From NCBI GenBank assembly GCA_017553545.1, contig JAFZKT010000075.1, positions 1 through 43,199 on the forward strand: DNA of 43,199 bases. Reading direction: 5' to 3'. Positions 36,056 to 42,993 of the stretch are shown in pieces. Both the position numbers and the translations under genes were made by a program. How positions within the stretch are numbered: the first letter of the stretch is position 1; every line of letters starts with the position of its first letter. The notes beneath the pieces were generated by a model. The model was not told the origin of the DNA, searched no databases, and was given only the letters and a program-made list of their open reading frames with translations. This DNA is from Bacteroidales bacterium. GTDB lineage: Bacteria; Bacteroidota; Bacteroidia; Bacteroidales; UBA932.

Positions 36056-37978
36056 ATGCAGCCGGACAGCGCATATATGTTCCCCACGTCGGTGAAGGAG
36101 GTGGAAGCCCTGGGATGGGATTACATTGACATCATCCTTTTCAGCGGCGACGCCTTCGTGGATCACCCCTCGTTCGGGACGGCGGTCATCGCCCGCTGGC
36201 TTCAGAAATGGGGCTACCGCGTGGCGGTGGTTCCGCAGCCCAACTGGCGGGACGACCTTCGGGACTTCCGCAAGCTGGGTCGGCCCAGACTGTACTTCGG
36301 CCTCAACGCCGGCGCCATGGATTCGATGGTGAACCACTACACCGCCTCCAAGCGCCTTCGCCACGACGACGCCTACACCCCCGACGGCAAAGCCGGCGCC
36401 CGTCCGGACTATGCAGTCACGGTCTACACGCAAATCCTGAAAAAACTCTTTCCGGACGTCCCGGTGGTCATCGGCGGCATTGAAGCATCGCTCAGACGCC
36501 TGACGCATTACGATTACTGGAAGGACTGCCTGATGCCCTCCGTGCTGGTCTCCTCCGGGGCGGATTATCTCTGCTACGGCATGGGCGAACGCCCGATGCT
36601 GGAACTCACCAAGGGCATCGAAAAAGGCTGGCCCCGCCACCGGATGCAGCAGATCCCGCAGATCGCATTCTTCGTGAAGGGTGGGTTACCGGGGCGGACA
36701 CACGCACCGGAATCCGTGGCCACCCTCGGCCGCGTAAGAGGGAGGGGCCCACTCCAGTCGGGCTCGCCCGACGAAACTTGGGAGGGGTCGCGAAGCGACG
36801 ATTCGGGTGCGTGTGTGCGGCCCGGAACCCTGGTATTACATTCTTTCGAAGAATGCTGCAAGGACAAGCGGGCGTTCGCGGAGAACTTCCACTGGATAGA
36901 GACGCACGCGAATATGATGCACCCGGACACCATCCTGGAGCCGGTGGCCGATGGCTATGTGCAGATCAATCCGCCTTATCCGCCGGCAACCACGGAGGAA
37001 ATGGACTCGTTCTGGGATTTGCCGTTCACCAAGCTGCCGCATCCGCGCTACAAGGGCAAACGCATCCCGGCCTACGATATGATCAAATTCAGCGTGAACA
37101 CGCACCGGGGCTGCTTCGGGGGCTGTAATTTCTGCACCATCGCCGCCCATCAGGGCAAGTTCATCCAGAGCCGGAGCGAAAAGTCCATCCTGAAGGAAGT
37201 GAAGGAGCTGAACAACCTTCCGGACTTCGCCGGCAACATCTCCGACGTGGGCGCGCCCACTGCGAATATGTACTGGATGAGCGGGAAGAATCCGGACCTG
37301 TGCGACAAATGCAAGCGCCGCAGCTGCCTTTTCCCAAAACGCTGCCCCAACCTGGACTGCGACCATACCCGCCTGATGGAACTCTACAAAAAGATCGACG
37401 ACACAAAGGGCATCCGCCACAGTTACATCGGCAGCGGCATCCGCTATGACCTCTTCCTTACGGAGGACGGGTTCGTGGACGGGAGCAGCAAACCCTACCT
37501 GGAAACGCTTGTCCTGAACCACACATCGGGCCGATTGAAAGTGGCCCCTGAGCACACGGAAGACCATGTCCTCCAAAAGATGGCCAAGCCCAGTTTTCGC
37601 CTGTTCGAGCGGCTGCGCAAGGAATTTGACGCGGTGAACCGCAAGGCTGGAACGCATGTGGGCCTGGTGCCGTATTTCATCTCTTCCCACCCCGGCTGCA
37701 CGATGAAAGATATGGAACGCCTCGCCAACCATCCTGCCCTGAAGGGCATCTGGATGGACCAGGTACAGGATTTTACACCCACACCCATGACCACTTCTTC
37801 GGTGATGTTCTACAGCGGGCTGGATCCAAGGGATATGACGCCTGTTTTCACCGAGCGGGACCCGGAAAAAAAGCAGCGGCAAAAATCCTATTTCTTTAAA
37901 AATTCCACCAAAAAAAGCGGGAAGGGCTTGCAAGGTTCAAAACAAAAGCCTAATATTGCACCGCGAAAGAAAAGATAA
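36056..37978 (+). CDS. ygiQ: YgiQ-family radical SAM protein with an in-frame repeat insert
   Basis: A 640-residue protein from ATG 36056; an upstream in-frame ATG at 36011 lies before the promoter and is rejected. The N-terminal B12-binding-like domain starts FPTSVKEVEALGWDYIDIILFSGDAFVDHPSFG. The radical SAM cluster motif is CFGGCNFC (Cys353, Cys357, Cys360). A second Cys-rich block CDKCKRRSCLFPKRCPNLDCDH and a basic tail follow, as usual for the family. The molecular reaction is not established. Residues about 210-258 (36683-36830) are a palindromic insert placed between FVKGG and VLHSFEECCKDKRAFAENF, where relatives have a short linker. The frame continues cleanly, so the gene is probably functional. 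Confidence 0.93.
   Translation: MQPDSAYMFPTSVKEVEALGWDYIDIILFSGDAFVDHPSFGTAVIARWLQKWGYRVAVVPQPNWRDDLRDFRKLGRPRLYFGLNAGAMDSMVNHYTASKRLRHDDAYTPDGKAGARPDYAVTVYTQILKKLFPDVPVVIGGIEASLRRLTHYDYWKDCLMPSVLVSSGADYLCYGMGERPMLELTKGIEKGWPRHRMQQIPQIAFFVKGGLPGRTHAPESVATLGRVRGRGPLQSGSPDETWEGSRSDDSGACVRPGTLVLHSFEECCKDKRAFAENFHWIETHANMMHPDTILEPVADGYVQINPPYPPATTEEMDSFWDLPFTKLPHPRYKGKRIPAYDMIKFSVNTHRGCFGGCNFCTIAAHQGKFIQSRSEKSILKEVKELNNLPDFAGNISDVGAPTANMYWMSGKNPDLCDKCKRRSCLFPKRCPNLDCDHTRLMELYKKIDDTKGIRHSYIGSGIRYDLFLTEDGFVDGSSKPYLETLVLNHTSGRLKVAPEHTEDHVLQKMAKPSFRLFERLRKEFDAVNRKAGTHVGLVPYFISSHPGCTMKDMERLANHPALKGIWMDQVQDFTPTPMTTSSVMFYSGLDPRDMTPVFTERDPEKKQRQKSYFFKNSTKKSGKGLQGSKQKPNIAPRKKR
36683..36830 (+). repeat. 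Palindromic element inserted in frame in ygiQ
   Basis: Imperfect terminal inverted arms of about 31 bases at 36683-36714 and 36800-36830, sharing CCGGG and ACACACGCACC. Two inner hairpins are GTCGGGC/GCCCGAC (36757-36772) and GTCGC/GCGAC (36787-36799). Bases 36691-36734 match 42838-42795 (minus strand) at 37 of 44 positions. On the plus strand it encodes THAPESVATLGR (residues 215-226). The minus strand of the other arm would also read GRTHAPES. Confidence 0.85.
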
Positions 37979-42249: not shown

Positions 42250-42993
42250 TTAGAACCTCCGGAACCGAAGGCCGATGACCCCCCAAAGGGCCTCGCTGAA
42301 GATACCTCCGCTCATCTTGGAGGTGCCTTTCTGGCGGTTGGTGAAGATGATGGGGACCTCCTGCAGCTTGAATCCCTTTTTCCAGGCGGTGTACTTCATT
42401 TCAATCTGGAAGCCGTATCCCTTCATCCTGATGCGGTCCATGTCGATGGCCTCCAATACCTCCCGGCGGTAGCAGACGAAGCCGGCGGTGGTGTCATAAA
42501 TGCGCATCCTCAGGATGGTGCGCACGTAGGCCGATGCGAAATAGGACATGATGATGCGGCTCATGGGCCAGTCCACCACGGAAACGCCGTTGCAGTAGCG
42601 GGAGCCCACCGCCAGGCCCGCGCCGTCCTTTTCGCAGGCTTTGTACAACCGCAGCAGGTCCTTCGGATTATGCGAAAAGTCCGCATCCATCTCGAAGATG
42701 TAGTCGAACCCGTTCTCCAGGGCCCATTTGAACCCTGTGATATACGCCGTTCCCAGTCCCTGCTTGCCTTCGCGCTCAATTAGGTGAATGCGATCGCGGC
42801 CGAGGGTGGCAACGGATTCGGGAGCATGTGTGCCCACCGAGAGGCCTTTCACGATATCGGCGGTGCCGTCGGGGGAGCTGTCGTCGATGACAAGCACGTG
42901 GAAATCCCCCTTGAGGGCGAGCACGGCGGCGATGATGTCCGCGATGTTCTCCTTTTCATTATAGGTGGGGATGATGACCAGTTTCTTGTCCAT
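42250..42993 (-). CDS. GT2 glycosyltransferase (polyprenol monophosphomannose synthase-like)
   Basis: 247 residues from ATG 42993; an earlier ATG at 43017 falls inside the promoter. IIPTYNEKENI at the start, VIDDSSPDGTADIV for nucleotide binding, and EMDADFSHNPKDL with the metal-binding D-x-D are the DPM1-like GT2 pattern. GSRYCNGV, DTTAGFVCYRREVLE and KGYGFQIEMKY follow. The enzyme should transfer a sugar from a nucleotide donor to polyprenyl phosphate on the cytoplasmic face. Unusually, residues about 52-66 (SVGTHAPESVATLGR) replace the short linker usually found between the KGL helix and DRIHLIERE. This stretch matches the palindromic element in ygiQ at DNA and peptide level. Confidence 0.9.
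   Translation of the reverse strand: MDKKLVIIPTYNEKENIADIIAAVLALKGDFHVLVIDDSSPDGTADIVKGLSVGTHAPESVATLGRDRIHLIEREGKQGLGTAYITGFKWALENGFDYIFEMDADFSHNPKDLLRLYKACEKDGAGLAVGSRYCNGVSVVDWPMSRIIMSYFASAYVRTILRMRIYDTTAGFVCYRREVLEAIDMDRIRMKGYGFQIEMKYTAWKKGFKLQEVPIIFTNRQKGTSKMSGGIFSEALWGVIGLRFRRF
42795..42838 (-). repeat. Half-copy of the ygiQ palindromic element, in frame in the GT2 gene
   Basis: 44 bases, 37 identical to 36691-36734. Only one arm is present. On the coding strand it reads THAPESVATLGR (residues 55-66), the same frame as in ygiQ. Confidence 0.85.

Follow-up and report, generated by a model that had tools for sequence, protein, structure and literature searches.

A palindromic insert within ygiQ

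The window, that is, the whole stretch of 43,199 nucleotides that we analyzed, belongs to a draft genome of a Bacteroidales bacterium (89 contigs totaling 1.76 Mb, with a completeness of 80.5%). It carries a gene for the radical SAM protein YgiQ, whose start we placed at the ATG at position 36056, and within this gene lies a palindromic insert that consists of two arms and a core (Table 1). The initial annotation had claimed such an insert, in frame, at 36683-36830, and the arms, the fold and the reading frame all agree with it: the arms are separated by 85 nt; the region 36670-36845 folds with -96.5 kcal/mol (z -4.85), a stability that none of 200 shuffled sequences equaled; and the frame remains open through the insert and on to 37978. 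The Pfam match to Radical_SAM_N runs across the insert, with 338 residues against 300 profile positions. Among the 25 longest of the window's 30 inverted repeats, only the arms of the element are both long and near-perfect.

Table 1. Features of the ygiQ insert and of a second fragment in the window.
Feature	Position	Strand	Basis or remark
ygiQ CDS (radical SAM protein YgiQ), with the insert in frame	36056..37978	+	ORF; Pfam PF08497, PF04055, PF11842
Whole palindromic insert, arms and core, 148 bp	36683..36830	+	Fold, inverted repeat and comparison with relatives
Left arm, copy-specific, complementary to the right arm	36684..36714	+	31 nt, 84%
Right arm, inverted counterpart of the left arm	36800..36830	+	31 nt, 84%
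Conserved core, match to covariance model R1	36716..36800	+	83.2 bits, E 6.0e-15; R1 was built from 12 cores, this one among them
Hairpin 1, loop ACCCTC, covarying stem	36716..36733	+	Covariation
Pseudoknot, loop 36723-36727 (CCCTC) with linker 36738-36742 (GAGGG)	36723..36742	+	Covariation
Hairpin 2, base CCCA/TGGG, variable tip	36748..36782	+	Covariation
Hairpin 3, GTCGC-GAA-GCGAC	36787..36799	+	Weakest part of the fold
Partial second copy, comprising hairpin 1 and one arm, within a glycosyltransferase-like ORF and in frame (name is our reading)	42795..42839	-	

We compared 80 YgiQ relatives out of at least 596 matches; the nearest among the matches listed are from uncultured Bacteroidales, with one Candidatus Cryptobacteroides at 72%. 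The distance between the conserved IPQ and CKD motifs is 71 residues in the YgiQ of the window, 27-37 residues in 69 of the 80 relatives fetched, and 41-115 residues in ten; the remaining sequence (L050) is cut by a contig end. The inserted residues, which the initial annotation had expected to be absent from other YgiQ proteins, are indeed not conserved in distant ones. A related insert occupies the same site in L022, L023, L024, L059 and the contig-cut L050, and in L023, L024 and L059 its core is inverted. By eye, the site holds a type II relative in L029 and a short hairpin without a core in L027; L030, L036, L089, L090 and L098 have longer loops there as well. A 21-nt tandem repeat adjoins the insert in frame at the contig end of L050 (positions 1-64).

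Copies of the element and their distribution

The interior of the ygiQ insert has about 12 other BLAST matches in the source genome, and the covariance model R1 matches this genome at 27 places with E <= 1, of which 25 have E <= 1.1e-4. Four of these 25 touch contig ends, and two are perhaps the halves of one copy. The initial annotation's interpretation, a repeat element inside ygiQ, is thus supported by many further copies, in frame in conserved genes as well as outside them.

Across 81 genomes, R1 finds the element in 44 at E <= 0.01: in 43 of 49 genomes of the genus (source genome included, and some of the 43 counted on a single weak match) and in one of 32 elsewhere. The highest count in a single genome is 49. 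In a survey of the order, five of 295 genomes have matches at E <= 0.001, namely the source genome, one from another genus of the family, and three from other families; a further genome of the genus in this survey has none at that threshold. A plasmid collection gave just one weak match to the element. Contigs C6, C59 and C63 of the source genome and C88, C107 and C179 of G048 end at the core or within about 12 nt of it, and copies in draft genomes are therefore probably under-counted.

Some copies lie between genes; others are in frame within conserved enzymes, in loops whose length varies. Placement in a conserved gene is established from ORFs and Pfam matches for ten of the 25 matches in the source genome, nine of them whole copies and one a half copy, and Pfam families were found in all ten proteins. 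The whole copies reside in YgiQ, a DHH protein (NrnA-like), an Ala_racemase_N protein (YggS-like), MetG, TruB, an M20 peptidase, prephenate dehydrogenase, dihydropteroate synthase and RibF, and the half copy in a PP-loop protein (TilS-like); names beyond those of the Pfam families are our reading. Another fragment lies in frame in an ORF that by eye resembles a methylthiotransferase. In 81 copies, the core with its arms leaves 3.28 of the six frames open on average, versus 1.96 in shuffles of the same composition. The in-frame copies are probably translated as part of their host enzymes.

A pseudoknotted core

Of the inner hairpins that the initial annotation had noted, the presence holds up but the number does not: it counted two, and we find three together with a pseudoknot. 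In 94 distinct cores, aligned by fitting to the model for the hairpins, 94.7% of the cells pair, and changes on both sides of a pair occur in 204 cells versus 52 in shuffles, none of 500 of which scored as high. The pseudoknot lies outside the search model, and 99.6% of the cells in its five pairs are paired; its variable pair is UA in 73 of the 94 rows, CG in 13, AU in four and GC in two, with one other combination and one gap. The outer three pairs of hairpin 3 are paired in 82.6% of the cells. This covariation shows a single-strand fold of the core's + strand, about 60-160 nt in length, with three hairpins and a pseudoknot. A search of ten loci against Rfam returned four sub-threshold matches, none on the element and none above the gathering score.

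Arms matched within a copy and different between copies

The sequence of the arms is specific to each copy. In 85 of the 91 copies that could be compared (98 in total, seven without enough flank), the best partner of an arm is its cognate arm, with a median score of 24; against non-cognate arms from that genome the median is 8. Three of the six exceptions have low scores (7-9), and in the other three the arm recurs in a sister copy. The aligned arm has a median length of 30 nt and is 91% complementary in 82 distinct copies, the others having been dropped for too little flank, a score under 15 or a repeated arm.

The contrast with the core is clearest in G014, where nine copies have cores with an identity of 0.96, the tip of hairpin 2 included, whereas arms of different copies are 0.50 identical, close to the 0.46 of shuffled arms, and the two arms of one copy 0.92. 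The corresponding values for cores, between-copy arms and shuffled arms are 0.86, 0.48 and 0.38 in G019; 0.88, 0.48 and 0.41 in G048; 0.94, 0.60 and 0.42 in G005; and 0.99, 0.62 and 0.40 in G016 (three copies). In most genomes, between-copy identity exceeds the shuffled level, and the difference is clear in G005 and G016. These identities were taken at a fixed offset, and for type II copies this puts the right arm in the wrong place (own genome 0.43, G016 0.74); local alignment handles these arms properly. Left arms have a weak G-rich consensus in common, and a few copies within a genome share arms: a left-to-left score of at least 18 was reached by 13 of 210 pairs in the source genome, 3 of 36 in G014, 1 of 55 in G019 and 0 of 21 in G048. 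The arms of the element thus are not a fixed terminal repeat: their sequence varies from copy to copy and is matched by the partner.

The 82 copies contain 165 mismatches between partner arms, 87 of which are transitions. In 62 cases the mismatch leaves a wobble pair on the + strand of the core, compared with 25 cases for the - strand (p 9e-5), a bias that fits folding of the + strand but also C-to-T change on one strand.

Alleles at orthologous sites

We prepared 20 sites and searched 13 of them in 12 genomes of the genus. The loop of a glycosyltransferase contains the core in + orientation in G005 and in - orientation in G038, with the same arms in both, so that the core is flipped between these species; the loop is short in G037 and empty in G028. 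At the intergenic site L270, G037 has the outer arms without the core. In truB, the left arm is identical in G005, G037 and G038. In the loops of FolP, TyrA, NrnA, YggS and the M20 peptidase the filler varies among species and can be type I, type II, a shorter type III core or a CGTC/TGTC-like repeat, although not every kind occurs in each loop. The third, shorter core has matched arms of its own and was seen in L171, L160, L382 and L392, in frame in loops of FolP, TyrA and NrnA. The CGTC/TGTC-like repeats, recognized by eye in L158, L159, L165, L330 and L383 and encoding peptides such as SERSEESP, are inserted in frame in those enzymes, either in these loops or in others; by eye, one is also present in the TruB ORF of the source genome (L110). 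One site shows, again by eye, an imperfect 8-nt candidate for a direct target-site duplication. The copy-specific arms, the covarying pseudoknotted core and this refilling of the same loops elsewhere go beyond what the initial annotation had seen.

Filled and empty alleles allow the inserted length to be accounted for. At six coding sites, 20 filled alleles exceed the empty allele, beyond the core itself, by 0.82-1.48 arm lengths (median 0.97), a result that depends on our choice of empty alleles (14 for ygiQ, two for nrnA, six for folP, five for tyrA, one for the glycosyltransferase and four for yggS), some of which may be later deletions. Alleles of one site are not independent, and the sample is therefore six sites. 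At the glycosyltransferase site we excluded G037, where a deletion is likely, and including it would place three alleles there at about 1.6-1.9 arms; also left out were five more distant alleles of that site, G028 at yggS, longer or unread tyrA alleles, and the longer nrnA loops of distant genomes, which would lower the nrnA value. With one arm length of extra DNA, one arm seems native and the other extra. Judged by eye from length and residues, the native-looking arm is on the 5' side of the gene in TyrA, NrnA, FolP and YgiQ and on the 3' side in YggS. At three intergenic sites (L234, L235 and L270) both arms seem new, with about two arms of extra DNA.

Origin of the arms

We suggest, as a tentative reading that falls somewhat short of even chances, that one arm arises as an inverted copy of the other. 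During insertion the + strand would act as a folded single strand, of DNA or RNA, whose short complementary ends (about AAACC...GGTTT) could snap back at the target and prime the copying, in inverted orientation, of the host sequence next to it over about 25 nt. The outcome would be one native arm and a partner that is its inverted copy. Template switching between the arms may later keep them alike and flip the core; flipped cores are observed, and this process would account for them. As a chemistry, this amounts to an inverted target duplication in which a folded single-stranded DNA or RNA core primes a copy of about 25 nt and each insertion builds its own palindrome, with at least three core families (types I, II and III) alternating in the same enzyme loops; we regard this proposal as possible, below even chances. 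The explanation as a whole, in which the element is a non-autonomous mobile palindrome of about 120-220 bp, with most of its occurrences in one genus of Bacteroidales, and its arms form by this mechanism, comes close to even chances in our estimation.

The main alternative is an arrangement like that of an ordinary MITE, in which the arms are terminal inverted repeats that the element carries along and that have diverged between copies, while template switching keeps the pairs matched and selection or gene conversion keeps the core alike. We lean against this explanation but consider it a serious one. In G235, a member of another family, the seven copies, of which six have both arms in view, have one arm sequence in common, and the arms therefore seem to be carried there; the related core of this genome (L426-L428, L431-L433 and L437) provides a natural contrast to the genus under study. 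In G265, the arms of the three copies differ from one another in their middle part. Within the source genome, the type II copies L115, L121 and L125 have one arm of about 27 nt in common, and carried arms would also fit the between-copy resemblance slightly above the shuffled level and the two arms of new DNA at intergenic sites. However, filled sites such as truB keep their arms between species, so the arms seem not to diverge fast, and in G014 the arms are nearly random around cores of 96% identity. Carried arms would also require that, at the six coding sites, about one arm length of native sequence disappeared each time.

Insertion of the core into the tip of pre-existing hairpins, as reported for some REP dimers, is improbable. 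The arms without a core at L270 in G037 and the short hairpin of L027 could be such targets, and the passages cited place REPs inside palindromes (PMC3733652), but coreless alleles fit deletion equally well, empty coding alleles have by eye no obvious palindrome, and the window holds no long, near-perfect inverted repeat among its 25 longest other than the arms of the element. We consider it very improbable that the element is a functional RNA maintained by selection, be it a hairpin with a regulatory role or an element for splicing or bypass, as the strong covariation and strand-biased wobble might suggest, because presence, type and orientation differ between close species at one site, the frame is open in ten genes of the source genome, which splicing or bypass would not need, and the ten loci have no Rfam match above the cutoff.

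A candidate mobilizer

The best candidate for mobilizing the element, though unproven, is a Y1-type transposase. Among 49 genomes of the genus, the number of Y1_Tnp matches correlates with copy number (Spearman 0.53, p 8e-5, kinship ignored), and at least five copies are present in 32 of 37 genomes with Y1 and in one of 12 without. Against this candidate, G014 has 15 copies and no Y1, and G010 has three Y1 matches and no copy. We selected 22 genes from the Y1 matches and searched 23 loci that surround them, and R1 found no core there at E <= 0.1. Several of nine Y1 flanks inspected by eye bear hairpins of their own; L202, L208 and L216, for example, contain transposase genes of about 290-315 aa that have REP-like hairpins in their flanks. 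Reverse transcriptase (PF00078) was rejected as a mobilizer, being absent from the source genome and from the high-copy genomes G004, G016, G023, G027, G047 and G048. By hand count, at least five copies occur in 11 of 14 genomes of the genus with RVT_1 and in 22 of 35 without.

Comparison with known elements

Palindromic elements inserted in frame are best known from Rickettsia. The initial annotation likened the ygiQ insert to these elements, and the two are alike in outcome: conserved enzymes, truB included, have taken up the insert in frame. As described in the passages cited, Rickettsia palindromic elements are palindromic stem-loops of 105-150 bp in several families, inserted in frame in conserved genes including truB and also found between genes (PMC2229807, PMC10969869, PMC3733652). 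The ygiQ insert, a palindrome of 148 bp with a stem-loop fold, falls within the size range of about 105-150 bp given there, and ten of the 25 matches in the source genome are in frame in conserved protein genes. The insert does not, however, have one end tagged with unpaired CGTC, a feature taken from PMC3733652 for the comparison with the Rickettsia elements. The two differ in phylum, and, compared by description, the passages on the Rickettsia elements speak of neither a pseudoknotted core nor copy-specific arms.

In REPINs, according to the part of the source cited, a spacer separates two conserved REPs that face each other in inverted orientation (PMC3116915). Like REPs and REPINs with their RAYT (Y1) transposases, the element is a short foldable palindrome in genomes that also contain Y1 transposases, whose number correlates with that of the copies; in contrast to REPINs, its middle is conserved and its ends vary, and, unlike REPs with RAYTs, its copies do not flank the 22 Y1 genes examined. 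REPs tagged with CGTC/TGTC are said, in the passages cited, to lack a dedicated transposase, to occur inside ORFs and to be known from Bacteroidetes (PMC3733652). Similar-looking repeats are present, by eye, in the same loops of relatives, but the element is much larger, and it lacks the unpaired CGTC end tag as described there (PMC3733652), the complement of CGTC being mostly inside the stem of hairpin 3 (36797-36800).

MITEs such as Correia, ERIC and RUP are described in the part of the source cited as small, non-autonomous elements with inverted repeats that can be fused in frame (PMC2229807), and the element resembles them in all of these respects. Whereas terminal repeats are common to the copies of a MITE, in the genus under study they mostly are not, with some sharing, and they are shared in G235. 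Template switching in inverted repeats is said, in the passages cited, to homogenize arms and to invert spacers (PMC8604942); alike arms and inverted cores are seen in the element too, but the former is a mutation process and the latter a dispersed element. Nothing in the literature, as judged by title and abstract and with subscription journals little covered, was recognized as this element.

Among the classes of small bacterial mobile elements considered in this comparison, none combines a conserved pseudoknot with matched arms that are specific to each copy. The combination points to a single-strand mechanism, and such arms around a common folded core suggest an unusual way of inserting DNA. 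The element provides a large set of filled, flipped, arms-only, remnant and empty alleles at orthologous sites in gut and rumen Bacteroidales, and with so many alleles, insertion, persistence and the origin of new enzyme peptides can be tested by comparison. By analogy, the element would work like the Rickettsia palindromic elements in outcome, and copy-specific arms around a conserved pseudoknot appear to be what is new.
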